The notes below the pieces were generated by a model that searched no databases, was not told the DNA's origin, and worked only from the letters and a program-made list of their open reading frames with translations. 46,338 nt of DNA from Deltaproteobacteria bacterium (lineage in GTDB: Bacteria; Desulfobacterota; Dissulfuribacteria; Dissulfuribacterales; QOAL01), in NCBI GenBank assembly GCA_026995935.1, contig JALWNK010000035.1:1-46338 (forward strand), given 5' to 3'. The number at the start of each line of letters is the position of its first letter. Positions within the stretch are counted from its first letter, which is position 1. Shown here one piece after another: positions 13,199 through 35,034 of the stretch. The translations under genes and the position numbers were made by a program.

Positions 13199-13257
13199 TA
13201 TCTACCTATTTAATGAAGTCATTATACCTGTTTTTAATATTTGTTTTTTCTTTAATT

Positions 13258-18831: not shown

Positions 18832-20031
18832 CTACACATAAAGCTCTTCCCGCACCAGGGGCAGATCATTTCTTCTTCCCAGGGTAAAAAGAAGCTGAAA
18901 TACAAATAAGGGATTGTACCTGAAGCTCATCTGGCTGCCGTAGAGATAAAAACGCCACATCCTTACGAATTTTTCGTCATAAAGCTGTTTCACCTTATCT
19001 GCATGTTCTTCAAACCTCTTTGCCCAGTTGCCAAGTGTGAGATCGTAGTGGCGTCTCAGGTTTTCAAGGTCCACGAAATCAAAGCCTGTATCCTCAGCTG
19101 TTTCCACAAGCTCTCCAAGGGCTGGAAGGTATGTGCCGGGGAATATATACTTGGTAATCCATGCATCCATCTCCATGGGCTTTGTCCTGCCGATGGTGTG
19201 AAGGAGCATTATCCCCTTATCCTTAAGTAGCCTGGAACATCTTTCAAAAAAGACAGAAATGTTTTCCTTGCCTACGTGCTCAAACATGCCTATGGAGATG
19301 ATCCTGTCAAAACCCTTGTACTCGCTTTCATCCATCTCCCTGTAGTCCTGAAGCCTGATCTCCACTTGATCCTCAAGGCCTTCATCCCTGATGCGCTGAT
19401 TTCCAAGCTCAAACTGGTTCTGGGAAAGGGTAAGCCCAACTGCCTTAACCTTGTATTTCCTTGCTGCCTCCATCACAAGGCTGCCCCATCCGCACCCTAT
19501 GTCCAAAAGCCTCTGGCCGGCCCTTAACCTGAGCTTTTTGAGGCTTCGGTTGATCTTATTGAGCTGGGCCTGCTCAAGGGATTCATCTTCTGAGGTAAAG
19601 AAGGCACAGGAATAGTTCATGCCCTTATCCAGCCACAGTCTGTAGAAATCATTTCCCTTGTCGTAATGGGCCTGCACGTCCTTTTTGGTCTGTTTTATGG
19701 TGGCCCTCTTTTTTAGATGAAGCCAGCAGACCCTGGCCTTTTGAAAGGGGGTCAGTCTCTCTTCTGCTGCATTTTTGTAAAACCACTCCATGGCATCGCC
19801 AAGGTTTCCAATAATTTCTATGTCTCCTTGCATGTAGCCTTCTCCAAGGGCAAGAGAGGGTTCAACCAGAAGCTCTTCAAAGATATGGGGACTTTTGATT
19901 CTTATTTGAAACTGGGGAGGGCCGTCTCCAAATTTGAGCTGTTCTCCGTTCCACAGGGTAATTGTGCAGGATTTTTCAGGACCTTCAGGCAGGATGTTCG
20001 TGAGAATTTTCTTGGCTTGCCCGGGATTCAT
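18832..20031 (-). CDS. cfa: Cyclopropane-fatty-acyl-phospholipid synthase
   Basis: A 399-residue enzyme that adds a methylene from SAM across double bonds of membrane phospholipid acyl chains. The HYDKGNDFYRLWLD block (122-135), MNYSCAFF (138-145), SAM motif LLDIGCGWGSL (175-185) and GMFEHVG are all characteristic. The N-terminal 100 residues form the usual helical lipid-binding domain. A GGGGGAGG ribosome binding site precedes the ATG at 20029-20031. It is a single gene, separate from the defence block that follows on the same strand after 153 bases. Confidence 0.95.
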   Translation of the reverse strand: MNPGQAKKILTNILPEGPEKSCTITLWNGEQLKFGDGPPQFQIRIKSPHIFEELLVEPSLALGEGYMQGDIEIIGNLGDAMEWFYKNAAEERLTPFQKARVCWLHLKKRATIKQTKKDVQAHYDKGNDFYRLWLDKGMNYSCAFFTSEDESLEQAQLNKINRSLKKLRLRAGQRLLDIGCGWGSLVMEAARKYKVKAVGLTLSQNQFELGNQRIRDEGLEDQVEIRLQDYREMDESEYKGFDRIISIGMFEHVGKENISVFFERCSRLLKDKGIMLLHTIGRTKPMEMDAWITKYIFPGTYLPALGELVETAEDTGFDFVDLENLRRHYDLTLGNWAKRFEEHADKVKQLYDEKFVRMWRFYLYGSQMSFRYNPLFVFQLLFTLGRRNDLPLVREELYV

Positions 20032-20094
20032 AATCTTGCCTCCCCCGTGCTTACAACTTAAATGGTTCCTATCAAAAAATAATCCCTTTTAATT

Positions 20095-20123
20095 TTAGTA
20101 TGTACGAAATTGTCTCGTGTCAA
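20095..20123 (-). promoter_or_regulatory. Candidate promoter of cfa
   Basis: On the minus strand a perfect TTGACA (20118-20123) is 17 bases from TACTAA (20095-20100), 64 bases upstream of the cfa start. The -35 overlaps one arm of the inverted repeat at 20111-20190. Confidence 0.4.
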
Positions 20124-20190
20124 GAAAGGCCCAATAGAACCAAGATTCAGGTTTGAATAGGGACCTGAAATTTAGTTGTTACATGAGACA
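20111..20190. repeat. Nested inverted repeats between dprE2 and cfa
   Basis: Outer arms TGTCTCGTGT (20111-20120) and ACATGAGACA (20181-20190) match at 9 of 10 positions. Inside them TTCAGGT (20146-20152) and ACCTGAA (20163-20169) form a perfect 7-bp hairpin. The structure follows the dprE2 stop and may end that transcript or bind a regulator of cfa. Confidence 0.4.
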
Positions 20191-20212
20191 TGCAAAAGGC
20201 TTAAAAGGGGCG

Positions 20213-20953
20213 TTAAAAATTGCAGTAGGCCTTGAAAATTCGCTCAGGGATAAGGCGGATTATACCCATAATTAGTCTCCACCGGCCCTTTACATATATA
20301 ACGTCCTTATCTTTTTTTTGAGCCGTATATATTTGCCTTGCGGCATCTTCCGGAGTTGCAGTTAAGATAGGTGGAAGCTTTATGGCCATTGTCATGCGCG
20401 TTTTGACAAATCCTGGTTTCACCGTCATCACATGCACACCGTGGGGATATAGCCTTGCCCTTAAACCTGATAGATACGCAGAAAGAGCGGCTTTTGAAGC
20501 ACCATAGATGTAATTTTTTTTACGCCCCCTGTCACCTGCAACAGAACTGATCCCTATTATGAAACCCTTGCGTCGCCTCTGGAAATCATTGGCAACCACG
20601 TTCAGAAAACAGGCAACCGCCGTGTAATTTGTGTCTGTTATTCTTTTAAACTCCCGGAAATCTTTTGACGCAGCCGTCTGATCCCCCATGTAGCCTATAA
20701 CGCAAATCACACCCGCAGGCCTTTTGCCCAGGGAAAAATAAAAATCTTCGTGTGCTTCAACGGACAAAATATCCAGACTCCGCAATATCACGTTTCTTTG
20801 GCTCCTGATGCGCAGGTCAGAGGCAAAATCCCTCAAGGCAGTTCCTGCATCTCTTGCAGCAAGAATCAGGTCATAACCGTGACGGGCATACTCCCTGGCA
20901 AGGGCCTTGCCGATGTCACTCTTTGCCCCAAGAATAAGAACGGACTCCATCAT
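20213..20953 (-). CDS. dprE2: DprE2-like short-chain dehydrogenase
   Basis: A 246-residue SDR oxidoreductase. LILGAKSDIGKALAREYA (6-23) is the nucleotide-binding motif, ISSVAGDRGRKKNYIYGASKAA holds the catalytic Ser, Tyr and Lys (Y-x3-K), and VKPGFVKTRMT follows. Sequence and context fit decaprenylphosphoryl-2-keto-ribose reductase (DprE2), the second half-reaction making polyprenyl-phosphoryl-arabinose. It starts at 20953, the last base of the dprE1 stop codon, so the two are coupled. Confidence 0.85.
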   Translation of the reverse strand: MMESVLILGAKSDIGKALAREYARHGYDLILAARDAGTALRDFASDLRIRSQRNVILRSLDILSVEAHEDFYFSLGKRPAGVICVIGYMGDQTAASKDFREFKRITDTNYTAVACFLNVVANDFQRRRKGFIIGISSVAGDRGRKKNYIYGASKAALSAYLSGLRARLYPHGVHVMTVKPGFVKTRMTMAIKLPPILTATPEDAARQIYTAQKKDKDVIYVKGRWRLIMGIIRLIPERIFKAYCNF

Positions 20954-22269
20954 TAAAGCCCCAGCCTTCTGGACTGAAGGGATTGAAACATCTTGTCCAT
21001 GTCATGTGACCTTCTAAATCGCCTGAATTGCCAAACACCAGGATAGCCTTTCTCAACCATCTTCCTGTTCATTCTAGAATCCTTAGTAAGATAGAGCCTT
21101 CCGCCCCTGGCTGCGACTTTGTTATCAAGTCTATCCAGGAGATCAAACAGGCCTTTTTGAATTTTGAAGTCAAGGGCAAGACCATAACCTTCCAAGGGAA
21201 ACGATAACAGGTTCCGGTTTTCCATCCCGTAAAGTTTCAGAACAGCCAGGTAGGGACTGATGCCAGATCTGTCTATTTCCCTCATTATTTCAAGAATACC
21301 ATCAAGGCTTTGCCGTTTGGGCAGAATGAAATGATACTGAACGAAACCCCGTCTGCCATAAAGCCTGTTCCACTGCCCGATCCTGTCAAGCGGATAGAAA
21401 AAAGTGTCAATGTCAACAACCTGCTGATATGAAACCCTTTCTTGTGTGCGATGGTAATAGAGGAAATTGAATCCTGATAGCAGGGCCTTGTTCATAAAAA
21501 AAGTTGGGAAATCCACGGGGATATCCATACTACCGTGAGGCCTGTAGTCAAAATCTCCCCCTTTCATGAAGGATGCAGAGGTAAAAATGCCACGTCCGGT
21601 CTTTGGGCCCTTTGCCGTGCCATCAATCCATGCCACGGAGTACGGCATATTTCGATATTGTTCAAAGGCATCAAAGGTTTCCATGAGGTTATTGGTCCTC
21701 ACAGTGACCTGTTTCAGTAAACAGGAGTCGATTTTCTTCAGATAAAACTTCGCCTCAAGTATCACACCGGTAAGGCCCTGCCCTCCGCAGGTTGCCAGGA
21801 ACAGTTCAGGTTTTTTGCTCCTGGAACAGGAAACCACCTGGCCGCCTGGCAATATAATTGAAATCTCCTTTACCCACCTGCTGAAACAACCATCCAGGTG
21901 GTGATTTTTACCGTGAACGTCACTGGCGATGGCTCCGCCAACCGTTACATGTTTGGTACCAGGAGTTACAGGCAAAAACCAACCCCTGGGCACAAATGTC
22001 TCCAGGATATCTGAAAGCAAAACTCCGGCCTGCGCATGTAAAAGGCCGTTGTCCGGGTCAAAGTCCAACATATAGTTACAGGGTCTGACGTCCAACATGC
22101 GTGCTGCAAGGGCAGAGTCTCCGTAGCTGCGCCTGTTCCCCAAAGGAATAAAAGGATCACCACTTTTGAGTAAGGAAGCCAGCCCCTCTGGAGAAACTCC
22201 GTAGACGAGTTCCCCATGGACCCTGGGATAACGGCCCCATGCTGAAAAATCCCTGACTTTTTGCCTCAT
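20953..22269 (-). CDS. dprE1: DprE1-like FAD oxidoreductase
   Basis: About 438 residues with an FAD-binding-4 domain and an ALO-type C-terminal domain. NRRSYGDSAL and VTVGGAIASDVHGKNHH match the flavin-contact motifs of decaprenylphosphoryl-ribose 2'-oxidase, which works with DprE2 to epimerise lipid-linked ribose to arabinose. In mycobacterial DprE1 the benzothiazinone-reactive Cys387 lies in GWNVCVDF; here the matching segment is GYGLALDF, with Ala at 21175-21177. The ATG at 22267-22269 is chosen for its GGTGA ribosome binding site. A longer start at 22293 would overlap the prenyltransferase stop by a few bases. Confidence 0.88.
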   Translation of the reverse strand: MRQKVRDFSAWGRYPRVHGELVYGVSPEGLASLLKSGDPFIPLGNRRSYGDSALAARMLDVRPCNYMLDFDPDNGLLHAQAGVLLSDILETFVPRGWFLPVTPGTKHVTVGGAIASDVHGKNHHLDGCFSRWVKEISIILPGGQVVSCSRSKKPELFLATCGGQGLTGVILEAKFYLKKIDSCLLKQVTVRTNNLMETFDAFEQYRNMPYSVAWIDGTAKGPKTGRGIFTSASFMKGGDFDYRPHGSMDIPVDFPTFFMNKALLSGFNFLYYHRTQERVSYQQVVDIDTFFYPLDRIGQWNRLYGRRGFVQYHFILPKRQSLDGILEIMREIDRSGISPYLAVLKLYGMENRNLLSFPLEGYGLALDFKIQKGLFDLLDRLDNKVAARGGRLYLTKDSRMNRKMVEKGYPGVWQFRRFRRSHDMDKMFQSLQSRRLGL

Positions 22270-22285
22270 GATCACCGACGCAGAC

Positions 22286-23191
22286 TCACCCATACAGTCC
22301 GAATCCAAAGGTAATAATCCAGCCTGCAAGGGCACACTGGATCATCCTATCCTTAAAAAAAATCCTTACAGGGGACCCGGAATCCCTGTGGACAAATACA
22401 AGATAGAGATAGCGCAATATACCAATGACAACGAAAAGAGCAGTTAGGTATAGATAGGGAGTGCCAACACGCTCCCGTACGTTTTCAGAATTTATATACA
22501 ACAGGTAGACACCAATTATGGATGCGGCCATAATGACAAGAAATATGTTCAAATATGAATTTCCTTGGCTGTAACCACCCACAACCTTTCGTGTCCTGAT
22601 CCGGCTGCTATGATAGATGAGTACATCATCCTTTCGTTTTGCAAGTGCCAAAAATAGCGATAGCAAAAGGGTCATAAGGACAATCCAGCCAGAAAGCTCA
22701 ACGGATGTGGCAAAGGAGCCTACAAACAGCCTGAGAACCAGAAAGGCTGAAACCGCCAACACGTCCAAAACAGGTATTTTTTTTAGGACAAGGGTGTATG
22801 CAGGCCCAAGCATGAGGTAAGTAAGAATTATCAAGGTAGTTTTTGAATTGAGGAATTGGACCGTAAGCACGGCCATAAAAACGCATCCTGCAAGTAAGAA
22901 CAGGGCTGCCTGCCTTGAAACATCACCTGAAGCCATGGGCCTTTGGCTCTTATAGGGATGTCTTGCATCCATTGGGGCATCAAATATGTCGTTAAAAATA
23001 TAAATTGCGCTGGCAGCAAAAGAGATGGCCCAAAATCCAACTGCCGCTTTGTAAAAAACTTCCGGCTCGGCAATCTCCTGAGCAAAGAACGCTGGAGCAA
23101 AGACCAAAAGGTTCTTGCTGTAGTGATGCACACGCAAAAGGCGCAAAACGTGAAAAAGCGAGCCCTTTAAGGCTTTAAAGGATGTTTTCAT
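22286..23191 (-). CDS. Polyprenyl-phosphate phosphoribosyltransferase (UbiA family)
   Basis: A 301-residue membrane protein with about eight to nine helices. NDIFDAPMDARHP (67-79) is the Asp-rich active-site motif in the form used by decaprenyl-phosphate 5-phosphoribosyltransferase (Rv3806c type), and VHHYSKNLLVFAPAFF near the N-terminus is typical of that branch rather than of quinone or heme prenyltransferases. It should transfer phosphoribose from PRPP to a polyprenyl phosphate, supplying the substrate of DprE1/DprE2 after dephosphorylation. Direct linkage to dprE1 (16 bases) supports this. The phosphatase of the pathway is not seen here. Confidence 0.87.
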   Translation of the reverse strand: MKTSFKALKGSLFHVLRLLRVHHYSKNLLVFAPAFFAQEIAEPEVFYKAAVGFWAISFAASAIYIFNDIFDAPMDARHPYKSQRPMASGDVSRQAALFLLAGCVFMAVLTVQFLNSKTTLIILTYLMLGPAYTLVLKKIPVLDVLAVSAFLVLRLFVGSFATSVELSGWIVLMTLLLSLFLALAKRKDDVLIYHSSRIRTRKVVGGYSQGNSYLNIFLVIMAASIIGVYLLYINSENVRERVGTPYLYLTALFVVIGILRYLYLVFVHRDSGSPVRIFFKDRMIQCALAGWIITFGFGLYG

Positions 23192-23703
23192 CTACCCTTA
23201 CGTGCGCCCATCCCGCAGAGAAGTTCCAGATCAGAAATATCCTGACTGGATAAAATCTGTTGCCCGGGCCGTATAAGCGCCCTCTTGACAAGGCCCTTTC
23301 TGAACTCAAGGGCTATCCTTGCAGGCTTATTGCAGGAATAAAGCCGCTTTGACATGGCCTTCATGGTAGTGGTGTAAATCACCTTCCCTTCAGAGGACAG
23401 GAGCACCAGATCAAGAGGCTCAGGGACATCCGCCATGGTAAAAACCATTATTGTCTCCCTTGGATAAAAAAAACACATACCCTTTTCTTTAGAATTTGAA
23501 CTTTCACTAACAATGTTAAGGGTCTTTCCTGAAAGCCCCCTTATTTGCGCCCATTTTGTACATGCAACCAAACATTCAGCATCTATGCCATTTATGGAAA
23601 AACGAAAAACCTGCAAATCACCGTTCCCAGAATTGTTACAGGAGGTTAAGGATAGAATTAATACGGCGCACAAACAAAACCAGTTGATCAAATCTCGACC
23701 CAT
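23188..23703 (-). CDS. DUF192-family lipoprotein
   Basis: A 171-residue exported protein. The first 22 residues form a signal with lipobox SLTSC; the rest follows the DUF192 pattern: RGLSGK, GMCFFYPRE, VFTMADVPEPLDLVLLSSEGKV, and a final ALEFRKGLVKRALIRPGQQI. The role of the family is unknown. Its stop overlaps the start of the prenyltransferase gene, so it heads that operon, though a functional connection is unproven. It diverges from the GT2 gene across 59 bases that must hold both promoters. Confidence 0.75.
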   Translation of the reverse strand: MGRDLINWFCLCAVLILSLTSCNNSGNGDLQVFRFSINGIDAECLVACTKWAQIRGLSGKTLNIVSESSNSKEKGMCFFYPRETIMVFTMADVPEPLDLVLLSSEGKVIYTTTMKAMSKRLYSCNKPARIALEFRKGLVKRALIRPGQQILSSQDISDLELLCGMGARKGR

Positions 23704-23762
23704 GATTACAAAATCAGAAATGTCAAAAAAACATTATTGGAACATTTGAAAAAAGTTCAACC

Positions 23763-24476
23763 GTGGAACAAGACATAACAGCCATACTGCCAGTTTTCAA
23801 TGAGGAACGGCGGATACTATTTACACTGAAACAGCTTGAACAATTCAACAACGGAAGGCCAAATCCAGTAAGGTTCACGGTAGTAGATGATGGCAGTACT
23901 GACAAAACCTTTTTGATAATAAAAGACTTTGCGGATTCCAGGCCTTGGATAAACTGCATGAAACTTCCGGACAACAAGGGAAAAGGCGCCGCCATTAAAG
24001 AGGGAGTAAACAAGGCTGACGGAAAATTCGTTTTTTTTATGGATGCCGATCTTCCAGTACCGCTCCTAACAATTACAGAAGCAATCCCAATTCTTGAAAG
24101 TGGCGTAGATATTGTTTTGGGGTCAAGGACCCACCCTCAAAGCAGGATACTTAACCAGACCCCATTAAGAAAGGTCATTAGTCGGATCGGGAACATTCTC
24201 ATACGCGTATCAACGGGGCTTCCCTTTCGTGACACCCAGTGTGGATTCAAGGGATTTACAAGAGCCGCTTCAAAAGAGCTGTTTTCGAGACTGAAAACAG
24301 ACGGGTACATGTTCGATGTGGAGATACTTCTGGCGGCGTCAAAGGCAGGCTTTAGGATCAGGGAAATACCGGTTGAATGGAGCAACGTTCCTGATGGTTC
24401 CTTCAACCCGCTGACTGATTCCATAAAAATGCTAATAGAACTCTACAGAATAGTAAGTAAAACCAAACAAGTTTGA
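23763..24476 (+). CDS. GT2 glycosyltransferase, dolichyl-phosphate sugar synthase-like
   Basis: A 237-residue GT-A enzyme. ILPVFNEE (8-15), VVDDGSTD (40-47), and the metal motif DADLPVP with an STGLPFRDTQCGFKGF segment are characteristic of the dolichyl-phosphate beta-glucosyltransferase branch, which charges polyprenyl phosphate with a hexose from a nucleotide sugar. No membrane helices are seen. The start is GTG at 23763 without a strong ribosome binding site. It probably supplies a lipid-linked sugar to the membrane glycosyltransferases downstream. Confidence 0.85.
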   Translation: MEQDITAILPVFNEERRILFTLKQLEQFNNGRPNPVRFTVVDDGSTDKTFLIIKDFADSRPWINCMKLPDNKGKGAAIKEGVNKADGKFVFFMDADLPVPLLTITEAIPILESGVDIVLGSRTHPQSRILNQTPLRKVISRIGNILIRVSTGLPFRDTQCGFKGFTRAASKELFSRLKTDGYMFDVEILLAASKAGFRIREIPVEWSNVPDGSFNPLTDSIKMLIELYRIVSKTKQV

Positions 24477-24496
24477 TTTTCTCTAACGAGTTCAAC

Positions 24497-24524
24497 TTGA
24501 CATATTCACACTTGGTGATATACA
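24497..24524 (+). promoter_or_regulatory. Sigma70-type promoter of the Thr/Pro-rich protein gene
   Basis: A perfect TTGACA (24497-24502) and TATACA (24519-24524) with a 16-base spacer lie about 40 bases before the start codon. This suggests separate, probably stronger transcription of the surface protein and the genes behind it. Confidence 0.55.
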
Positions 24525-24563
24525 AATTGTCAAATAAATACTTGGAAAGCAAAAGGGGCCGTC

Positions 24564-24890
24564 ATGATCAAAAAGTCAATGGAGATGCTCAGGCTGTTCA
24601 TCCTCACACTTTTTTTGCTTTTTTCTACTAGTGGACCAGTTTTTTCGCAAACGCCCACTCCGACTCCAACAACTGCTCCTCCAACTCCGACTCCTACAAC
24701 TGCTCCCACTAACACTCCTACCCCAGGGCCAACCTACACTCCCACGCCTGTCACGGGAGCAACTCCAACTCCCACATCAGGCGGGGCAATTCCCGTACCC
24801 TTTGGCAGTGCAGAAGGCTATGCCATTCTCTTTGGGACCACTGCCATACTGGGCATATGGTTTATCCTCAGACATAAAAGGGAAGAATAA
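24564..24890 (+). CDS. Thr/Pro-rich secreted protein with C-terminal anchor
   Basis: A 108-residue protein with three parts: a signal peptide (about 1-29, ending VFSQ), a low-complexity linker of TPTP and TTAP units (30-75), and a C-terminal block with GSAEGYAIL, a hydrophobic helix (about 83-101) and the basic end RHKREE. The last block has the layout of a sorting or membrane-anchor signal, of no type I can name. Such linkers are classic sites of O-glycosylation, and the gene lies amid glycosyltransferases. It has its own promoter and an AAAAGGGG ribosome binding site. Confidence 0.75.
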   Translation: MIKKSMEMLRLFILTLFLLFSTSGPVFSQTPTPTPTTAPPTPTPTTAPTNTPTPGPTYTPTPVTGATPTPTSGGAIPVPFGSAEGYAILFGTTAILGIWFILRHKREE

Positions 24891-24906
24891 ATCAGGGGAC
24901 TGATTT
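24889..24906 (+). promoter_or_regulatory. Intercistronic hairpin after the Thr/Pro-rich gene
   Basis: AAATCAG and CTGATTT form a perfect 7-bp stem closed by GGGA. It begins in the stop codon and ends right before the AAGGA and TTG start of the next gene. It may lower expression of the downstream genes relative to the surface protein or protect the upstream mRNA end. There is no T-run. Confidence 0.5.
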
Positions 24907-24912
24907 AAGGAT

Positions 24913-26247
24913 TTGACCCAGCCCGCTATTGCAATCATAGGTGCAGGGCCAACCGGCCTGGGAGCCGGATACCGTCTTAAGGAACTCAAATACAGCAACT
25001 GGACCGTTTATGAATCACGGCCCTGCTCCGGTGGGCTTTCCGGTTCCTTTATTGATTCCAAAGGCTTTACATGGGACCATGGCGGACACGTGCTGTTTCC
25101 TACATACGACAGGATACGACAACTGCTTCGCCAATTTGGGGATGATTTTTTTCATAAAATAAAAAGAAAGGCCTTTATAAGGCTTGGCCAAAGTCTTGTC
25201 CCCTACCCCATTCAGCTCCACAAGGAATTCATACCGAAAAATTTTTCCGGCCATTTTCATAAGGAAAAAGCGTCACCGAAGCAGAGAGAAAAGTCAACTG
25301 ACAACTTTCGTGACTGGCTCTCCAACTCTTTCGATGCCCATCTGTGTGAGATCTTTTTCTATCCATACAATAATAAGGTATGGGGCTACCCCCTGGAAAA
25401 GATGTCAACATCCTGGGTGAAAAACAGGATAAGCCCTCAAACAACTACACAAGTCCGGGAAGGGTGGGGACCAAACAAAACCTTTCTTTATCCAAGAAAA
25501 GGAGGGATGGGCGCGGTTTTCAATACTCTGGCTTCTTTCTTTGATGAAAATATCGAATTCTCCTCCAGGGTCGTTGCTGTGGATATATCCACCAAGCAGA
25601 TATGGCTTAAAGACGGCACAAAGAGGGCGTTTGACATTCTCATCTCCACTATGCCCTTAAACGAGCTCGTATCCATGATAAGGGGAGAGGTGCCGGAAAC
25701 GGTGCGCAGCATGGCAGACAGGCTTCACTGGAATTCATGTGTTGTGTCCGGGGCAGGTTATGCCCATCAAGTTAAGGACCAAATTTCCTGGGTATATTTT
25801 CCTGAAAAGGAGTATCCCTTCCAGCGCGTTACTGCCCTTTCCAGCTATTCAAAGGATTTGGTGCCCCGCGGAAACACAAAAACCTATTCATCGTTAATGT
25901 GTGAGACTACACTTAAAGGGGATAAATGGCCCAGGCGCAGGTCAATACTGGAGGGCATAGAGAGGTCAAGACTTTTGGAAGATGTTGAAAATACTGACAG
26001 TGTACGAGAACCTGTCTCTTTTACCCAATTTCTTATCCCGTATGCCTATCCCATTCCTACCCTTGAACGGGACAGGATTTTATCCACCATTCACGGATTC
26101 CTGAAGAAACATGACATATACTCCCGTGGTCGTTTTGGGGGCTGGAAATATGAAGCAGGCAACATGGATCACTCCTTGATGCAGGGAATGGAAATCATAG
26201 ACAGGTTGCTTCTTGGAAAAGAGGAAAGGGTTTATAGCGGCTATTGA
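24913..26247 (+). CDS. FAD oxidoreductase, UDP-galactopyranose-mutase/PPO-like
   Basis: A 444-residue flavoprotein. The dinucleotide motif GAGPTGLGAGYRL (10-22) is followed by YESRPCSGGLSGSF and a WDHGGHVLFP segment typical of the amine-oxidase/UGM superfamily. FYPYNNKVWGYP and the WVYFPEKEYPFQR region recall UDP-galactopyranose mutase-like enzymes that act on nucleotide sugars. Context (glycosyltransferases on both sides) favours a sugar role over a protoporphyrinogen oxidase role. The start is TTG at 24913, directly behind AAGGA; an upstream stop in frame excludes a longer form. Substrate is not determinable. Confidence 0.72.
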   Translation: MTQPAIAIIGAGPTGLGAGYRLKELKYSNWTVYESRPCSGGLSGSFIDSKGFTWDHGGHVLFPTYDRIRQLLRQFGDDFFHKIKRKAFIRLGQSLVPYPIQLHKEFIPKNFSGHFHKEKASPKQREKSTDNFRDWLSNSFDAHLCEIFFYPYNNKVWGYPLEKMSTSWVKNRISPQTTTQVREGWGPNKTFLYPRKGGMGAVFNTLASFFDENIEFSSRVVAVDISTKQIWLKDGTKRAFDILISTMPLNELVSMIRGEVPETVRSMADRLHWNSCVVSGAGYAHQVKDQISWVYFPEKEYPFQRVTALSSYSKDLVPRGNTKTYSSLMCETTLKGDKWPRRRSILEGIERSRLLEDVENTDSVREPVSFTQFLIPYAYPIPTLERDRILSTIHGFLKKHDIYSRGRFGGWKYEAGNMDHSLMQGMEIIDRLLLGKEERVYSGY

Positions 26248-26990
26248 AGGGCGGAATAAGTATAGTAATGCCTGCCTACAATGAAGAGGCGGCCATAGAA
26301 AAAACCGTGCTGGACTGCCGGGAAAAGATATTGAAAAGGTTTTCCCAAGGAGAAATCATTGTGGTAGAAGACTGCAGCACTGATGCCACAAGAAAGATCC
26401 TTAAAAAACTGTCAGGCTCTGTGCCTGGGCTGGTGTTACTGCTGAATGACCGGAATATGGGGCATGGTCCCTCGGTGATAAGGGGGCTCAATGCCTCCAA
26501 ACATGAATACATCTTCTGCACAGATAGCGATGGACAGCAGGATCCTGCGGAATTCTGGCGCCTTTTCCCATTGATTCAGGAGGCCCACGTTGTAACTGGA
26601 ATTCGCAAGGAAAGAGAGGATCCGGAGTACAGAAAGATATTGAGCTGGTTTACCAACAGCCTTGCAAGATGGATCTTCAACTGCCCTTACAGGGACTTGA
26701 ATGTCCCCTTCAAGCTCTTTACAAGGCCTGGCCTGGAGGCGATTCTTCCTCATGTACCCTCAGACAGCATAATCCCTTCCATCCTGATAATGTTGACTGC
26801 ATACGAACTTGGCCTAAAGCTCAAACAGGTGGAGGTGACCCACTTTGCCAGGACCACAGGCAAGTGTTCCCTGCCAGGGCCGAAACTTGCCATTTTTTGC
26901 ATAAAGGCGTTGACTGAACTGCTGAAGTTCCGCTTTGAGACATGGCATACCCTCAAAGGCCAAGGCCTCAGTCGAAATAGTAATGGCTGA
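26244..26990 (+). CDS. GT2 glycosyltransferase
   Basis: A 248-residue GT-A enzyme with VMPAYNEE (8-15), VVEDCSTDAT (40-49) and the metal-binding DSDGQQDP, followed by a WFTNSLARWIFNCPYRDLNVPFKLF-like acceptor region cut here into its recognisable halves (NSLARWIFNCPYRDLNV). It resembles polyprenyl-phosphate mannosyl- or glucosyltransferases without the C-terminal membrane domain. The start is TTG at 26244, overlapping the previous stop (TTGA). The next gene starts inside its last codons. Confidence 0.82.
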   Translation: MKGGISIVMPAYNEEAAIEKTVLDCREKILKRFSQGEIIVVEDCSTDATRKILKKLSGSVPGLVLLLNDRNMGHGPSVIRGLNASKHEYIFCTDSDGQQDPAEFWRLFPLIQEAHVVTGIRKEREDPEYRKILSWFTNSLARWIFNCPYRDLNVPFKLFTRPGLEAILPHVPSDSIIPSILIMLTAYELGLKLKQVEVTHFARTTGKCSLPGPKLAIFCIKALTELLKFRFETWHTLKGQGLSRNSNG

Positions 26991-29052
26991 GCTCATAAGG
27001 TTCTATCTCGTTTCCCTGTTTCTTGGCCTTGCCGCCCTGCCCTTTCTTCCCCTAAGGTCCCCAAAAGATGCAGAAGTCCTGTTTGCATTGTCAAGGACAT
27101 TGGGGCCCTACCTGTTTGCCCTGTTTTTGTGCATCATCTGCCTTTCAGGCGTTGGTATCTGGTCCGGCTCGGCCCTTGCCCTCTCTGTATCAGTGGCCAT
27201 ATGCGCTTGGTGTGCGTTTCTTTACTTACACAGGAAAAACCTTGCGGAATACCTCCACTCGTTAAAAAAGGCCTTTATCCGCACAGAGCTTCCAAGCTTT
27301 GTTCTATTCCTGTTTGCATGCGGACTGGTTGCAACCTCACCGGCCATAATAGGAACTGAAAAACCAATGGATTTTGCCATCTTGAACTCTGTTTTTCATT
27401 CCTCAAGGCTTCCTCCGCCTGATCTCTGGTTTTCGGGAAAAGCCCTTAATTATTACTGGTTCGGCCACCTGCAGGCCGCATTGATGTGTCATCTTTCAGG
27501 CATATCTCCTGATACCGGATATAATCTGATGCTTGCCCTGACCTTTTCCCTGATATTCCAGGCCACTTTCAGTCTGTTCAGGATCCTCGGCACAGCCTAC
27601 ACAAAGGCAGTGGCAGGGGCGCTTTTGGTGGTGCTTGCAGGCAATCTGGTTCCCATTTACTTCGTTTTCGGTGCGCATGGTCACTCTCCTTTTGACCTTT
27701 GGGTCCCAAGCAGGATAATACCTGGAACCATAACTGAATTTCCCTTTTTCAGCCTGCTCGTTGGTGACCTGCACGCACATTACGTCATGCTTCCCTCCTT
27801 CATTGCATTTGCATCTCTCCTTTTGAGAACCCGGAATGATGGAGATTCATCACCCCTTCAAGGCGCTATTATGCTGAACGCACTCATTGTGTGCACAGCA
27901 CTGGGAAATCCCTGGAATATTGCTCCAATGTTGATACTCTTTTTTGTTTCGAAAATCCTTGGGATTACAAGACTGCCCTGGTGGGCCCTGGTTCCATCAT
28001 TGGTGTTATGTCCGCTTCTCATTCCAACCGGTGGACATCATCTCGGGATTGGACTTGTCAAACATGGCAGTCCTCTTTCCGCATTTTTGCTGGTCTGGGG
28101 CCTGCCATTAGTCATGATGACCGTTTGGTGGGCATGCTCAAGACCTCTCCCCCTTACCTGGCCCATCCTTTTGGTGGCAGGCGCCCTTTTATGGTTACGT
28201 CCTGTTGTAGGGATGCTTTTCGTTTTTCTTGCCATGCAGGTTTTGCTTTCAAAAAGGGAGGGGATATTGGGAAAAGGTCTTGCCGCCATCTCGGTATCGG
28301 CAATCCTGTGCCTGCTGTTGACAGAAATTTTTTATCTAAAGGATATATATGTTCCTCCCTATGAAAGGATGAATACGGTCTTCAAGCTCTCCTACTGCGC
28401 ATGGCCATTACTCATGACCTCTGGCTTTGTTTCTGTTTTCCGTTCTGTAAAACCCCTTGAAGAAAAAGCAGGCGGTCTTTCCACTGTGGCACTTAGCCTC
28501 CTGGTGGCCCTTGGCCTGGCCTATCCATGTGTTGCAATCGCAAAGAAGATAAAATCACTCAACTATCAAACACTCACCCTGAACGGTTTAAGGCCACTTC
28601 GACAATCCTTTCCAGATGATTTGGCGGCCATAGACTGGTTAAGGACAAGGGCAAGACCTGGTGACGTGTGTCTGGAAGCACCTGGCACTTCATATACGTG
28701 GAGCAGCCGGATATCGACCTTTACCGGATGCGCCACCCTGTGCGGCTGGGGGCAACACGAATTCCTTTGGCGAGGAGATAGCAAGGAGCTTGAGAGAAGA
28801 AAACGTGACATCAACGCCATCTACACGTGTAAAAACAAGAGACGCTGCCTGGAGCTTCTTTCAAGATACGGGGTCAACTGGATTGTCTGCTGCGATCTGG
28901 AAAAAAGACTCTATGGAACTGAGTGGAAGCGCCAGATGCAGGGTATTGTAAAGAAGAGATTCCGCAAGGGAAACTGCACGATCTATTCCGTTGATATTCC
29001 CGGTGATGAAAAGAGGGGCATGGCCAAACCTGCAATCAATGAAAACGGTTAA
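26983..29052 (+). CDS. DUF2298 / Chlor_Arch_YYY membrane protein
   Basis: A 689-residue, strongly hydrophobic protein with more than a dozen predicted helices. MDFAILNSVFHS, LNYYWFGHLQAAL and GDLHAHYVMLPS match the single-copy class of the Chlor_Arch_YYY family (TIGR03662/DUF2298), known mainly from Archaea and Chloroflexi. The C-terminal 150 residues contain a soluble domain with TRARPGDVCLEAPG, similar to GT39-type exported domains. Function is unknown; GT-C-like transfer of lipid-linked sugars is inferred. The ATG at 26983 is chosen because it overlaps the preceding stop by 8 bases; the longer frame at 26935 repeats residues out of family. Confidence 0.8.
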   Translation: MAELIRFYLVSLFLGLAALPFLPLRSPKDAEVLFALSRTLGPYLFALFLCIICLSGVGIWSGSALALSVSVAICAWCAFLYLHRKNLAEYLHSLKKAFIRTELPSFVLFLFACGLVATSPAIIGTEKPMDFAILNSVFHSSRLPPPDLWFSGKALNYYWFGHLQAALMCHLSGISPDTGYNLMLALTFSLIFQATFSLFRILGTAYTKAVAGALLVVLAGNLVPIYFVFGAHGHSPFDLWVPSRIIPGTITEFPFFSLLVGDLHAHYVMLPSFIAFASLLLRTRNDGDSSPLQGAIMLNALIVCTALGNPWNIAPMLILFFVSKILGITRLPWWALVPSLVLCPLLIPTGGHHLGIGLVKHGSPLSAFLLVWGLPLVMMTVWWACSRPLPLTWPILLVAGALLWLRPVVGMLFVFLAMQVLLSKREGILGKGLAAISVSAILCLLLTEIFYLKDIYVPPYERMNTVFKLSYCAWPLLMTSGFVSVFRSVKPLEEKAGGLSTVALSLLVALGLAYPCVAIAKKIKSLNYQTLTLNGLRPLRQSFPDDLAAIDWLRTRARPGDVCLEAPGTSYTWSSRISTFTGCATLCGWGQHEFLWRGDSKELERRKRDINAIYTCKNKRRCLELLSRYGVNWIVCCDLEKRLYGTEWKRQMQGIVKKRFRKGNCTIYSVDIPGDEKRGMAKPAINENG

Positions 29053-32000
29053 TGGTGCAACTAACAACAGATGCGGAAGATTCATATTTGTTGCCGCATT
29101 TTCCCTCATAGCACTTGGGGTAATGCTCCGTTTCACTGGTCTAAACTTTGACAGGGGCTGCCACCTTCACCCGGACGAGCGATTCCTTACAATGGTGGTA
29201 ACATCCATCGAGTGGCCTGAATCGGTTGCGGAATACTTTTCCACAGAGACCTCTCCACTTAATCCTGTGAACAAGGGCCATTCCTTTTACGTTTACGGGG
29301 ACCTGCCCGTCTTTGCGGCAAAGGCCATTGCCCAAATTACTGGCACGGATACCTACGATGGTTTTACAAACACCGGGCGGATACTGTCGGCCCTGGCGGA
29401 TTCCGCAACCATAGCACTGACATTTTTAATTGGCTCTCTTTTGTTCGGCTACGTAACTGGGTTGTGGGCCGCAGTCTTCTACAGTCTCAGTGTTCTGCCC
29501 ATACAACTGTCCCATTTTTTTACTACTGACCCCTTTATGAACCTTTTCATGGCATGGTCATTCTATTTTCTCTTAAGGTTTTCCAAGTCGCAAGGCTTCG
29601 GACACGCCCTCATATCCGGCTTACTTGCAGGAATGGCCCTAGCCTGCAAGATTTCGGCAATATCCCTGTTACCTGTTGCAGCGTTGGCCTGCCTTGTTAC
29701 GGGTCAGAGAATGAGCGCCACAAAACGTGTACTGTTTCTTTTGGTGATTCTTTTCTCATCTTTTCTGACATTCCGGCTACTTAACCCATACGCCTTTGAA
29801 GGCCCCAGTTTTTGGGGCATCCTCCCTGCAAAGTCGTTCATTTCCAACATGAAGGAACTTTCAAGGATCTCCCAGCCGTTTTCAGGATTTCCCCCTTCCC
29901 TCCAGTGGGCCTTAAGAGCCCCGTTGCTTTTCGGACTCAAAAACATGGCGCTCTGGGGCACAGGAGTTACGCTTTTCATATCCGGTGTCACAGGCCTAGT
30001 ATTCGTGTTTGCCAGGCTCTTAAAGGATAAGGAACAGGAACTTGCGCTGCCTCTTGTCTTCATTGCCTCCTTGCTTGCACTCATTGCCTGTCATCCCGTA
30101 CAGACCATGAGGTACTTTCTTCCCCTTTATCCTTTCATTGCTATCTTTGCCGCATATTTTGTGTTCCGCTTCAATACTGAAGTAAAAAAAGTACCACTTG
30201 CGTGGCTTCCCCTTTCGGCAACTGTTTTTTTTACTCTTTTCTGGGCGCTGGCCTTTCATTCCATATACTCAAGGCCTATGACCAGGGTAGAGGCGTCCGT
30301 CTGGATAAAACAAAACGTCCCTTCTGGTAGCACTATTGCCACGGAACTGTGGGACGACTCACTTCCCCTTGGAGGTTACGGCAGACGGCATCTCAAATTC
30401 CAGGCACTGGACATGACCAGTAAGGATTCGCCTGATAAGATAAAGGAGATAGCCTCAAGGCTTGATGAAGCAGACTATCTGGTCATAAGCAGCAACAGGG
30501 CATACGGGCCTATAACAAGGCTTGGAAACGTCTTTCCTGCCACCTCCCGCCTGTATTATCTCCTCTTTGGCAACCTGTCTGGTTTTCATCTGGAAAAGGA
30601 ATTTTTCAGCTATCCCTCCCTTGGCCCTGTCACCTTTCCTGACGATGACGCTGAAGAGGCATTCACGGTCTATGATCACCCAAGGGTATTTGTTTTCAAA
30701 AAGGGAAAAGACTTCTCAATCAAAAGGCTTGAGGAGGAACTTATCCATACACTTGCCTCTTTTGACAAAAGAGGGAACAGCAACCTGCACACTGTGCCCG
30801 CCAGTCAAATAAGGCCTGTAACCCTTTCTGGTATCAAAGAAGAGGAAGGTCAGGAACCGGTTATCCTGATTCGATTCATGTTTTTGATACTCATGGCGGG
30901 TGCTGGGGGCATGCTTTTGAGCAGTTATCTGTTTCCTGGCATTCATCTTCCAGCAAGGGCCGTATTACTCTGCATGGCCGCCTTCTCTTTCTGCTTTCAA
31001 CAAAAATTTTTGCCAGTACCGGGCAAGTATTCTGTCTTTTTCACTCTGGCCATCCTGTACGCAGTGGCGCTGTTTCAGATGACAAAAATACGAAAGGTGC
31101 TTAGAGGGGAAACAGAGCTTGTCTTCTGGCTCGTTTTTGTATTCTTTCTAATTCTCCGGATGCACAATCCGGCCATCTTATGGGGCGAGCGCCCCTTTGA
31201 CTTTGGAATACTAAACAGCGTAACCAGATCAGAAACCTACCCACCTATTGATCCGTGGTTTTCTGGCTCGCCACTTTTTTACCATGCATGGGGGCAGTTT
31301 TTCATGGCCTTTTTGGGCAGGCTTTCCCATGTGCCAACATCGTATCTTTACAATCTCGGGGCGGCCCTTGTGCCAGCCATGGCGGCAGAACTCTTTTACT
31401 GGGGCGCAAAACATCTGACTTCCAGCCGTCTGGCAGGTGTGTTTTCAGTGATATTCATACTGTTTTCAGGAAATCTTTCCGCCTTTTTCCTGAACCCCCT
31501 GGCAAACGGCCTTTGCTTCAAGGACTTTTGGGATACAAGCCGAATAATTCCAGACGCCATCAACGAATTCCCATTCTGGACATCGGTTTTTGCCGATCTT
31601 CATGGCCACTTCATAAATATTGTCTTTACTGCCATCTTTCTGGCAGCCCTTATAATCTGGAGCAGGAACCAGGCACCCCTTAAAAACAGGGCGCCTTTCC
31701 TTGCAGGTCTTGCCCTGGGCGCGATCGCCCTTACAAACCCCTGGGCATTGCCTGTCTACTGCCTGGTATTGATATTTTTTTCAATGACCGGCTCTCTAAA
31801 GGATGCTACACGGCTTTTGGGAGTTGCCTTTGCCACTGCCCTTATAATAGTGCTGCCCTTCTGGTCATCGCCTGCCTCCAGGGCAACGATTACCTTTACA
31901 TCTAAGGGGATGAGCCCCCTGCACCTTTTCATCATATTTGGCCCATTTATGGCCATCTATCTCGTCTGGGCAGCCATGACCCTGAAAATCAAAAAAATAA

Positions 32001-32836
32001 TCCCTGTCACACTGCTGATCTCAGGCCTGCTTCTACTCTTTTTCCTGCCCTATGCCCTTACTGCGTTATGCACGGTTCTCCTTTTTGTTCTTTACATGCT
32101 TCTGGAAAAACCAGGAGGCAGCCTCAATCTCAGGCTTTCCCTCCTCATGGCAGCAGGCCTTTTGGTTCTCATAGGGACGGAAATATTTACATTGAGTGAC
32201 AGGATGAACACCGTATTCAAATTTCACTTTGAGGTATGGATACTATTTGCGCTGGTGGCAGGAGTAATCATGGCTGAAATATCAAAAAAACCTGGATACA
32301 AAAGCATTCCCTTTGCCGTATGCCTCATGTTTGCCGCATCCACCTTGCCTACTTCCATCACAAGTCTCACAGCCTGGTGGAAAGACCCCAAGGTTCCTGG
32401 CCAGTCCCTTTCCATTGACGGCCTGCGATTCCTGGACACGTCTTCCCCGGATATGAGAAAGCTCATTGAAACCCTTAAGGACGTTAAAGGGCAGCCCACA
32501 ATAGCCGAGGCCTCCGGATCAAGTTATGGCCCCTATGCCCGAGTCTCCTCCATGACGGGCTTGCCTGCTGTTATCGGCTGGGAATATCATGTGTATCAGC
32601 ACGGACATGGCTGGGATCAAATAAAAGAGCGGGAAAGGGCAATGGGCGATCTGTACCAAAGCAGAAATCCCCGTCAGATCGCAAGAATCCTGGACAAATA
32701 CCATATCAGGTTCATGATATTGGGAACCCTGGAAAAAAAGACCTATGGTACTGAAAGCGGCCCCTGGCTGAGAGCGGCAGGCCTTATACCGTTTTACCGG
32801 TCTGGAAATGAAGAAATATGGATAAATGATAAATGA
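29039..32836 (+). CDS. GT39-like / DUF2298 fusion membrane protein
   Basis: About 1265 residues. The N-terminal half resembles GT39/PMT-type GT-C enzymes: LNFDRGCHLHPDERF with an acidic HPDE motif in the first external loop, many helices, and an exported segment with ASVWIKQNVPSGS. The second half, from about residue 600, is a full Chlor_Arch_YYY domain (PFDFGILNSVTRS, LFYHAWGQFFMAFL, ADLHGHFIN) with its own exported C-terminal domain. The fusion joins two probable membrane glycosyltransferases. The start is uncertain: TTG 28991, ATG 29006 and ATG 29039 are in frame, and none has a strong ribosome binding site. It overlaps the previous gene by 14 bases. Confidence 0.8.
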   Translation: MKTVNGATNNRCGRFIFVAAFSLIALGVMLRFTGLNFDRGCHLHPDERFLTMVVTSIEWPESVAEYFSTETSPLNPVNKGHSFYVYGDLPVFAAKAIAQITGTDTYDGFTNTGRILSALADSATIALTFLIGSLLFGYVTGLWAAVFYSLSVLPIQLSHFFTTDPFMNLFMAWSFYFLLRFSKSQGFGHALISGLLAGMALACKISAISLLPVAALACLVTGQRMSATKRVLFLLVILFSSFLTFRLLNPYAFEGPSFWGILPAKSFISNMKELSRISQPFSGFPPSLQWALRAPLLFGLKNMALWGTGVTLFISGVTGLVFVFARLLKDKEQELALPLVFIASLLALIACHPVQTMRYFLPLYPFIAIFAAYFVFRFNTEVKKVPLAWLPLSATVFFTLFWALAFHSIYSRPMTRVEASVWIKQNVPSGSTIATELWDDSLPLGGYGRRHLKFQALDMTSKDSPDKIKEIASRLDEADYLVISSNRAYGPITRLGNVFPATSRLYYLLFGNLSGFHLEKEFFSYPSLGPVTFPDDDAEEAFTVYDHPRVFVFKKGKDFSIKRLEEELIHTLASFDKRGNSNLHTVPASQIRPVTLSGIKEEEGQEPVILIRFMFLILMAGAGGMLLSSYLFPGIHLPARAVLLCMAAFSFCFQQKFLPVPGKYSVFFTLAILYAVALFQMTKIRKVLRGETELVFWLVFVFFLILRMHNPAILWGERPFDFGILNSVTRSETYPPIDPWFSGSPLFYHAWGQFFMAFLGRLSHVPTSYLYNLGAALVPAMAAELFYWGAKHLTSSRLAGVFSVIFILFSGNLSAFFLNPLANGLCFKDFWDTSRIIPDAINEFPFWTSVFADLHGHFINIVFTAIFLAALIIWSRNQAPLKNRAPFLAGLALGAIALTNPWALPVYCLVLIFFSMTGSLKDATRLLGVAFATALIIVLPFWSSPASRATITFTSKGMSPLHLFIIFGPFMAIYLVWAAMTLKIKKIIPVTLLISGLLLLFFLPYALTALCTVLLFVLYMLLEKPGGSLNLRLSLLMAAGLLVLIGTEIFTLSDRMNTVFKFHFEVWILFALVAGVIMAEISKKPGYKSIPFAVCLMFAASTLPTSITSLTAWWKDPKVPGQSLSIDGLRFLDTSSPDMRKLIETLKDVKGQPTIAEASGSSYGPYARVSSMTGLPAVIGWEYHVYQHGHGWDQIKERERAMGDLYQSRNPRQIARILDKYHIRFMILGTLEKKTYGTESGPWLRAAGLIPFYRSGNEEIWINDK

Positions 32837-34362
32837 AAAGGAATCCTGATCTGGCAGTACTGGCCATTTTGCTTGTGCTCGCATGCATCTTTCGTCTCTA
32901 TGGCCTTGAGATCAGGCCATATGATCACGACGAGGCAATACATGCATGGTTTTCGTACATAATCACAAAGGGTCTTCCCTACAAGTTTGATCCTGTTTAC
33001 CACGGACCCCTGCTTTACTATTCAAATGCGGCCATTTTTAAGCTTTTCGGGGCAACGGACTTCACGGCCCGCTTTCTTCCAGCCCTCTTTTCTATAGGGC
33101 TGATTCCGCTTTGTTATTCCATGCGAAGACAGCTTGGGAGTTGGGGGTGGGCAGTTAGCGCACTTTTCATCATATTTTCACCCACCCTTGAATATTACGG
33201 CCGCTTTCTGGGCCACGACGATTTTGTTGCATTTTTTACCCTGGCCACCATCGCCCTAACACTCTCATTTATACGAAGGCCAAGGCCTCTACCCATCTAT
33301 CTGCTTTTTGTGGTGCTGGGGCTATTCATTTGCACAAAGGCCTGTTTTTATATTCACGTTGGTCTTTTCATCTCTTTTATTGTCCTTGTGGTGGTATTTG
33401 ACAGCTTCAAGCCGGAGTATCCCAGGGAAGAAGTTGTCAGATTTCTGAAGGAATGGCTGTTACGTTTCCGTATCCATATTCTCGCGGCTTCTTCCATTTT
33501 TATCATTATTTATGTCTTGCTCTACAGTTCTTTTCTTTCGAATTTACACGGTGTGATCAGCGGAATTTCAAGCATGCTGGGCTACTGGTACGGCCAACAG
33601 ATGCATCCAAGGCTCCCTGGCCCGTTTTACTACTATGTTCCCCGCTTGATCTTTCATGAGCCGGTTATATTCCTGGCGCTTCCGGCCCTCCTTTACTACT
33701 CAGCCAAAAAGGGCGGCGCACTGGATGTATTTCTGGCCTTTTACACCCTGGCATCCTTTACGGTCTACAGCTTTGCCCAGGAAAAGGTGCCCTGGCTCCT
33801 GATGCACCCGCTGTTGCCAATGACGCTTCTTGCAGGAAGATTCTTCCAGAAACTCATGGACACAAGACGGCTGAATGAGGGACTTCTCATAGGCGTGCTG
33901 GTGCTCCTGATGGCATGGAGTGCAAGGGAAAGCGCATACCTCTGTTTTGTTTCCCCGCCTTCTTCACCTCATCTGTTGAAATACATGGCCACTGCCGAGG
34001 GGCCAAAGCAGACGGCCAGGTTGCTTGAAAATATGGATGAATCAGAGGGCCAGATATTCATTACCGGAGACGCCACATGGGTACTGACCTGGTACCTCAG
34101 GGACAAGAATGTGACCTATACGCTACCCAAGGGGTGGGAAAAAACCGCTGCTGCCGTGGTTGCTGACAAAGCAGTCAAAGCCAGTGGCACTGAATTTGAG
34201 TGCAAGAAGAGGATACTGCGCACATGGTGGCTTCCAGACTACAAGGGGCTTTTTCTCAAGGATGCCTGGAACTATCTCCTCTTTCATAAGACAGGCCAGG
34301 GAATCGGAAAAACGTGGTACTGCACCTGCCTGAAGAGTAAGCAGCGTGATCCAACCTCGTAG
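32833..34362 (+). CDS. TIGR03663-family GT-C-like membrane protein
   Basis: A 509-residue integral membrane protein with about eleven helices. RPYDHDEAIHAWFSY (28-42) is the acidic catalytic-loop motif of GT39-like enzymes, followed by YHGPLLYYSNAAIFKLFG and RFLGHDDFVAFF, all matching TIGR03663, a family that co-occurs with Chlor_Arch_YYY proteins. Its reaction is unknown; transfer of a polyprenyl-linked sugar to an exported acceptor is likely by fold. The start ATG overlaps the preceding stop (ATGA). Confidence 0.83.
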   Translation: MKRNPDLAVLAILLVLACIFRLYGLEIRPYDHDEAIHAWFSYIITKGLPYKFDPVYHGPLLYYSNAAIFKLFGATDFTARFLPALFSIGLIPLCYSMRRQLGSWGWAVSALFIIFSPTLEYYGRFLGHDDFVAFFTLATIALTLSFIRRPRPLPIYLLFVVLGLFICTKACFYIHVGLFISFIVLVVVFDSFKPEYPREEVVRFLKEWLLRFRIHILAASSIFIIIYVLLYSSFLSNLHGVISGISSMLGYWYGQQMHPRLPGPFYYYVPRLIFHEPVIFLALPALLYYSAKKGGALDVFLAFYTLASFTVYSFAQEKVPWLLMHPLLPMTLLAGRFFQKLMDTRRLNEGLLIGVLVLLMAWSARESAYLCFVSPPSSPHLLKYMATAEGPKQTARLLENMDESEGQIFITGDATWVLTWYLRDKNVTYTLPKGWEKTAAAVVADKAVKASGTEFECKKRILRTWWLPDYKGLFLKDAWNYLLFHKTGQGIGKTWYCTCLKSKQRDPTS

Positions 34363-34407
34363 GGTTTATCTACCCTTTACTAATCCCCTGTTATTTGGCA
34401 CTCTTTC

Positions 34408-35034
34408 ATGAAAACACGAGGCTTAACAGGGATGAATAATTACCAAAGGCTGGAGACAAAAGAAGTGATCAACTACGAACGGGAGCTTCTTTTGGGAGTC
34501 ATAAACCGCTTTATCGGGCGTTTTTCCAGACAGATTCAGAGAAAGACCATGCTTGAAACATCAAGGGAATATCCCTTTGTGGCCATGGATACCAGGCAGG
34601 TCTTTGAGCAGCTTCTATTTGTCGGCAGGTATCTTCGGGAAAAACACGGCTGCCAGGAACTCGATGATTTCAGCTTCGTTGATGTGGGCTGTGGATTTGG
34701 AAACGTTATGCTATTTGCAGAGCAGTTCGGTTTTGACACCTACGGGATAGAAAAGGATGAGGCATCCATAGAGGTTGCCCTGGGTTTTTTTGACGAAAAG
34801 CAGATAATCAGGGCAGACATCATGAATTACAAGGGCTACGGGCGCTTTGACGTGGTCTATTTCTTCTGCCCACTCACTGAGGGTGAGAGAGAGTTCGAGG
34901 AATTTTTAGAAGACGAGATAAGGCCTGGGACCATATTGATTGGAAACTACAAAAGAAGTAAGAAGATTGAAACGGACAAAAGGTTCAGACGGCTTAATGC
35001 GGCCTTGCCCGTTTGGGAAAAGGTCTCGGCCTGA
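34408..35034 (+). CDS. Class I SAM-dependent methyltransferase
   Basis: A 208-residue cytoplasmic protein with the SAM motif FVDVGCGFGNVML (90-102), an acidic turn YGIEKDEAS at the end of strand 2, and DVVYFFCPLTEGEREFEEF near strand 4. The N-terminal 85 residues are helical. It ends the glycosylation run and may methylate a sugar or the acceptor, which is inference from position only. A second start at 34432 is possible. A G/C-rich inverted pair (GGCC) lies after the stop near 35029-35047. Confidence 0.75.
   Translation: MKTRGLTGMNNYQRLETKEVINYERELLLGVINRFIGRFSRQIQRKTMLETSREYPFVAMDTRQVFEQLLFVGRYLREKHGCQELDDFSFVDVGCGFGNVMLFAEQFGFDTYGIEKDEASIEVALGFFDEKQIIRADIMNYKGYGRFDVVYFFCPLTEGEREFEEFLEDEIRPGTILIGNYKRSKKIETDKRFRRLNAALPVWEKVSA

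Follow-up and report, generated by a model that had tools for sequence, protein, structure and literature searches.

The window analysed here is the whole 46,338-nt stretch of contig JALWNK010000035.1 (GCA_026995935.1, forward strand) from a Deltaproteobacteria bacterium placed in QOAL01 by GTDB. It carries three overlapping plus-strand genes, which a first-pass annotation had already located correctly: a 689-aa DUF2298/TIGR03662 protein (26983..29052), a PMT_2-DUF2298 fusion of 1265 residues from the ATG at 29039 (29039..32836) and a 509-aa TIGR03663 or Agl23-type protein (32833..34362). Along the order GT2b, DUF2298, fusion, TIGR03663 the genes overlap by 8, 14 and 4 nt, and the GT2b gene overlaps the preceding gene for an FAD enzyme, a mutase, by 4 nt. 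The NCBIfam and Pfam profiles bear out the family names that were given, with Chlor_Arch_YYY (TIGR03662) on the first protein and the C-terminal half of the fusion (376.3 and 332.3 bits; cut-off 300.25) and TIGR03663 on the third (245.4 bits; curated cut-off 126.25). Pfam DUF2298 scores 245.2 bits on the 689-aa protein and 233.1 on the fusion, PMT_2 matches the N-terminal half of the fusion at 46.7 bits (gathering threshold 26.1), and PMT_2/PMT also match the TIGR03663 protein. DUF2298 occurs at exactly two places in the genome, both in the gene pair at 26983-32836, and “single-copy”, as the first protein had been described, holds if taken as one domain per protein.

The three genes belong to a block of 14.24 kb (20132..34371) that is absent as a unit from two congeners. 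In G007 the sequence passes from window position 20131 to 34372 with 17 bp between, and in G006 from 20131 to 34495, implying that the 14.24 kb were gained or lost as one unit. Among eight congeners searched, the interior of the block was matched only in the sister genome G004, where two parts of it lie on separate contigs (window 19500-23729 and 28468-33015). The block encodes, in order, a DprE2-like and a DprE1-like protein, a UbiA-family protein, a DUF192 protein with an N-terminal hydrophobic segment (PF02643; 23188..23703, minus strand), the polyprenyl-phosphate-sugar-synthase-like GT2a (23763..24476, plus strand; nearest solved structure dolichol-P-mannose synthase, 1.8e-12), a small Thr/Pro-rich protein, the mutase, GT2b, and the DUF2298, fusion and TIGR03663 proteins. 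The Thr/Pro-rich open reading frame (24564..24890, plus strand), single-copy in the genome, has in translation a signal-like start, a TPTPTP-rich stretch and a hydrophobic C-terminal tail ending RHKREE, as in a secreted or membrane protein. It could, speculatively, be an acceptor; as a conserved acceptor it was rejected, since a scan of 97 sequences found no copy beyond that of the window (the match in L132 is to the window again). Elsewhere in the window, on the minus strand at 10331-15669, a match to RdrB of RADAR defence (PADLOC, 1.1e-29) was obtained for a 955-aa protein that lies beside an 803-aa AAA-type protein; by sequence, the two are a possible divergent RADAR-like defence pair.

The 689-aa DUF2298 protein was modelled from a 61-sequence alignment with a pLDDT of 89.0 and a pTM of 0.93, and on this model a GT-C fold is near certain. 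Both fold lists are topped by GT-C-type enzymes, whose whole-core matches range between Z 20.3 and about 12. Foldseek returned the C-mannosyltransferase DPY19 at E 4.6e-7, and VIA-align matched the model to the yeast oligosaccharyltransferase (OST) subunit STT3 (8agb_A; Z 20.3, 455 residues aligned, 7.0 Å), to ArnT (5f15; Z 17.9, 421 residues, 6.0 Å) and to AftA (Z 14.3, 476 residues, 4.8 Å). Sequence searches of the PDB gave no such signal: the DUF2298 profile found no OST up to E 10 and chance matches alone (triosephosphate isomerase and others, 0.25 or worse), and single-sequence searches returned nothing for the DUF2298 protein or the fusion. Our literature searches retrieved no published function for DUF2298 and no paper on the TIGR03662 or TIGR03663 names.

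Two conserved motifs mark a candidate active site in DUF2298. E126-K-P-M-D130 (27358..27372, plus strand) is a proposed catalytic or metal-binding acid loop, and D262-L-H264-A-H266 (27766..27780, plus strand) is a proposed metal motif. Conservation was counted over 115 rows, that is, the 166 rows aligned to the profile minus 51 without one or both motif columns; of the 114 open reading frames, all but one, the fragment L036, were assessed. E126 and DxHxH are each kept in 114 of the 115 rows, the remaining row in each case being gapped. Position 130 carries D (96 rows) or E (17 rows) in 113/115, the other two rows having an N and a gap. All 29 rows that do not contain the pattern used in the locus scan keep both E126 and DxHxH. 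These counts supersede an earlier 61/61 for E126, D130 and DxHxH, which was biased because its rows had been chosen by those very motifs. E126 is placed in the first extracytoplasmic loop from the range over which the model aligns to ArnT, not residue by residue. The AglB of Archaeoglobus fulgidus binds its metal through D47, D161 and H163, the latter two in a D-H-H motif, according to the part of PMC8342417 cited here. At the level of motifs, D262-x-H264 of DUF2298 equals the D161-x-H163 pattern of AglB, and the DxHxH site may bind a metal as that DxH does.

For the fusion, residues 1-1200 of 1265 were modelled (pLDDT 79.9, pTM 0.70). The GT-C core of the model spans residues 5-559, and its N-terminal half matches AglB (3waj; Z 30.8, 442 residues aligned, 6.5 Å) and Pmt4 (Z 27.6, 379 residues, 3.4 Å), which makes a GT-C fold near certain for this half too in the predicted structure. 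The GT-C fold that had been predicted is upheld by the models for DUF2298 and for the fusion N-terminal half. Of the two such cores to be sought in the fusion, the second has no entry of its own in the fold list, and would be GT-C by homology to the modelled DUF2298 protein, to which the C-terminal half is 26% identical (TIGR03662, 332 bits). The HPDE motif of the N-terminal half (29168..29179, plus strand) is kept in 31/31 ungapped rows of a 32-row fusion alignment, and in the second core the same alignment places E-R-P-F-D (31187..31201, plus strand), the equivalent of E126-D130, and D-L-H-G-H (31595..31609, plus strand; 32/32 rows); the counts for HPDE and D-L-H-G-H are partly biased, as rows were picked in part by a related motif. 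HPDE, together with DHDE in the TIGR03663 protein, had been named earlier as a catalytic acid motif, and both are present; the ExxxD/E and DxHxH sites of DUF2298 itself had been overlooked.

The TIGR03663 protein presents a puzzle of its own. “No known function”, as the first-pass annotation had it, is out of date for this family, whose NCBIfam name is “flippase activity-associated protein Agl23”, and published flipping by a protein of that name had escaped notice. As described in the cited part of PMC11182771, purified Agl23 of Haloarcula hispanica flips M5GN2-PP-dolichol-type lipids in vitro and rescues a yeast rft1 deletion, and the protein is there termed a putative Glc/Gal-P-dolichol flippase, citing Lu 2020. 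A profile of 20 TIGR03663 sequences had ArnT, at 4.2e-9, as its sole PDB match up to E 1, and the protein searched as a single sequence gave spurious matches alone. From this profile match a GT-C fold is likely. The DHDE motif (32923..32934, plus strand) has D33-E34 invariant in 20/20 rows of the alignment, and these loop acids, with the ArnT match, suggest a transferase. No MATE, SMR or GtrA flippase was matched by Pfam among the 11 proteins of the block, which is consistent with TIGR03663 as the flippase, and both roles may hold.

At the other end of the block, divergent from the GT-C genes, lie minus-strand genes for a DprE2-like short-chain reductase (20213..20953; NF053786 170 bits against a cut-off of 250, with PRK07102 better at 321 bits), a DprE1-like oxidase (20953..22335; NF053785 362 bits, full-length, cut-off 500) and a UbiA-family protein resembling polyprenyl-phosphate phosphoribosyltransferases (22286..23191; NF008977 210 bits, cut-off 234), the only UbiA-family gene found in the genome. 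DprE1 and UbiA both fall below the NCBI equivalog cut-offs, hence our “DprE1-like”, and no phosphatase for a phosphoribosyl product was recognised in the block. A genome scan gave 80 DUF2298 loci, to which 11 from the phylum of the window were added, and the resulting 91 were searched with the window proteins. DprE1 and DprE2 were found in 0/91, a count on which we rejected them as general neighbours of DUF2298; many loci are short or at contig edges, and for a given genome the missing genes prove nothing. Within the phylum, a DprE1 search at E 0.001 was swamped by unrelated FAD oxidases, and matches at E 7e-84 or better were counted by hand (26/395 genomes; 20/246 genera). By this count full-length DprE1 is present in 3/7 genomes with DUF2298 against 23/388 others (Fisher 0.0075); two of the three are congeners, and counted by genus the value is 0.054. 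The tie to lipid-linked sugar synthesis that had been proposed from UbiA, DprE1 and DprE2 therefore stands for this block, where these genes were gained or lost with the GT-C genes, whereas DprE1 and DprE2 do not accompany DUF2298 in the loci elsewhere; co-occurrence of the families across genomes of the phylum, the check proposed for it, is weak. The DUF2298-DprE link is good here and weak in general.

Lipid-linked sugar genes had thus been seen in the neighbourhood, and what had been missed was the UDP-galactopyranose mutase and GT2 immediately upstream. The mutase (24913..26247, plus strand) matches PDB 4dsg full-length (residues 3-438; E 3.6e-76, 259.8 bits) and is of eukaryotic type, 4dsg and the next PDB matches being enzymes we take to be eukaryotic. 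GT2b (26244..26990, plus strand) is nearest to ArnC (5.5e-12) and dolichol-P-mannose synthase (1.2e-6); no hydrophobic segment was found in it, so it could act instead on a soluble or lipid-PP acceptor. Five loci have an adjoining mutase-GT2b pair next to DUF2298, namely the window, L051, L082, L112 and L118. L051 (Acidobacteria) and L118 have a mutase of the window’s type, whereas L082 and L112 (Kiritimatiellaeota) have a bacterial GLF-type mutase, assigned in L082 by PF03275 and in L112 by 52% identity to that of L082. A gammaproteobacterial locus (L059) has mutase, UbiA, TIGR03663, DUF2298 and fusion together, with no GT2b match. Control loci were the 18 best-scoring mutase places in genomes without DUF2298, from 40 genomes with a mutase match; GT2b lies beside the mutase in four and is missing from 14, and the pair is therefore not exclusive to DUF2298. 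In one control (L142:633-12761) a GMC oxidoreductase and an epimerase accompany the pair, as do an LPG_synthase_TM protein and a number of membrane proteins; among those that follow it are one PMT_2 protein and two more with several membrane segments. The locus looks like this pathway in a form that lacks DUF2298.

No mutase was seen in the Chloroflexota loci, the majority of the set, or in the other non-Chloroflexota loci (three from Blautia, L060, L066, L069 and L096). A different FAD amine oxidase, not a galactopyranose mutase, occurs in 27/80 scan loci (for example L117:15962-17290) and a flippase-like LPG_synthase_TM protein in 28/80 (for example L109:14066-15106), both mainly in Chloroflexota, where the donor may differ accordingly.

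DUF2298 is widespread in Chloroflexota, with the PMT_2 fusion, and scattered in other bacteria, and two archaea were matched among the control genomes. In the phylum of the window it is above the cut-off in 7/395 genomes, which marks it as sporadic there and probably transferred. The PMT_2 half is present in 51 of the 90 loci with listed hits, in the same frame as DUF2298 in all 51, and TIGR03663 in 40; with the fusion architecture this common, the gene set is not a wholly new kind. These counts include redundancy, L120 being L082 and L029, L035 and L037 lying on that same contig (G364:C410). Two further apparent fusions, of FAD mutase to DUF2298 (L051) and of DUF2298 to TIGR03663 (L096), were dismissed as artefacts of long open frames, their parts lying in different frames. 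In a tree of 73 of the 115 extracted rows, from which most Chloroflexota rows had been thinned out, single and fused DUF2298 are split by one branch (SH-aLRT 90; one label change against 24.7 in shuffles); the rows of the window are long-branched and their exact placement is unsure. In Blautia (L044, L047, L050) DUF2298 stands alone, after a conserved gene pair for a sigma-70-region-2 protein and an unassigned 390-aa protein.

Taken together, the families, predicted folds, motif conservation, operon layout and presence or absence of the block as a unit form the basis of the pathway we favour, at a probability of roughly 0.5: the GT-C proteins would complete, on the extracytoplasmic side, a pathway based on furanoses linked to polyprenyl phosphate, galactofuranose and/or arabinofuranose. 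That they use polyprenyl-linked donors is likely; that the sugar is a furanose is best supported, by gene linkage, and stands at about even odds. The mutase would make UDP-galactofuranose, which GT2b, perhaps with GT2a, would load onto polyprenyl phosphate, and in parallel UbiA, DprE1 and DprE2 would make polyprenyl-phosphate ribose or arabinofuranose. The TIGR03663 protein, possibly a GT-C glycosyltransferase or a GT-C-fold flippase, would carry the lipid-linked sugar across the membrane and/or transfer it, and the PMT_2 domain, through its HPDE acid, and the two DUF2298 cores, through ExxxD/E and DxHxH, would pass sugars on to an extracytoplasmic acceptor.

A serious if doubtful alternative is that the donors are ordinary polyprenyl-phosphate hexoses (galactose, glucose or mannose) made by GT2a and GT2b, the mutase and Dpr genes serving other, cytoplasmic transferases. 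It would explain why GT2a is nearest to dolichol-P-mannose synthase, and it agrees with the tie of archaeal Agl23 to Glc/Gal-P-dolichol in the cited part of PMC11182771, with the lack of a mutase in most DUF2298 loci and with the mutase standing without GT2b in most controls. It fits poorly, however, with mutase and GT2b genes that overlap the GT-C genes and with a pair that recurs beside DUF2298 with two types of mutase. The sugar apart, DUF2298 might resemble oligosaccharyltransferases and use a metal at DxHxH to transfer, in one piece, a glycan already assembled on its lipid. STT3 subunits are its best structural matches and its DxH has the AglB pattern, but we regard this as unlikely: ArnT scores nearly as high, the DUF2298 profile finds no OST sequence in the PDB, the WWDYG motif is absent from the translations inspected by eye, and several transferase cores in one operon would fit stepwise addition better than a single en bloc transfer.

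It is similarly improbable, in our estimate, that TIGR03663, and perhaps DUF2298, are flippases or scramblases that have kept a GT-C fold, leaving the PMT_2 half as the sole transferase. The activity reported for the purified Haloarcula protein and its rescue of yeast speak for this, as does a block without any other recognised flippase; yet D33-E34 of TIGR03663 and E126 and DxHxH of DUF2298 are near invariant, as in catalytic rather than transport proteins, and the TIGR03663 profile matches ArnT.

Comparison with known systems places the furanose pathway that we prefer among several precedents. The ArnT/PMT family shares the fold and the loop acids, with the profile match of TIGR03663 to ArnT and the 3.4 Å match of the fusion N-terminal half to Pmt4, although in the fusion a single chain joins the PMT_2 core to a second, putative GT-C core. 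The STT3/AglB enzymes are the top structural matches of both DUF2298 and the fusion N-terminal half and the pattern of the AglB DxH motif recurs in DUF2298, which differs in showing neither profile-level similarity to them in the PDB search nor WWDYG. The three-component pentofuranose systems, in the cited part of Kelly et al. 2024 (PMC11127046), likewise bring GT-C enzymes together at a single locus with epimerases of DprE1/DprE2 type and a UbiA polyprenyl-phosphoribose synthase-like protein; by contrast, the present block has no recognised MATE (or SMR) flippase among its 11 proteins, adds the pair of UDP-galactopyranose mutase and GT2, and has a GT-C set of DUF2298, PMT_2 and TIGR03663. With the Agl23 of H. 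hispanica the window protein shares the TIGR03663 family name above the curated cut-off and a tie to lipid-linked sugars, a comparison made by family name; unlike it, the bacterial member adjoins mutase and DprE genes.

A bolder reading, one that we would hold at long odds, sees in DUF2298 a family of GT-C transferases that has so far gone unrecognised and whose metal site resembles that of AglB. The block would then be a complete pathway, spread by horizontal transfer, in which galactofuranose and arabinofuranose are transferred from polyprenyl phosphate on the outer side of the membrane, and Agl23-type proteins would serve as transporters or transferases. With its fold, its candidate site (E126, D262, H264, H266) and its linkage to the mutase and GT2, DUF2298 can be tested as an enzyme for which a donor is proposed. 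TIGR03663 is of particular interest as a reported flippase whose profile nevertheless matches ArnT and whose loop acids are invariant, and the block of putative furanose genes around DUF2298 hints at the role of membrane proteins that have long been unexplained.
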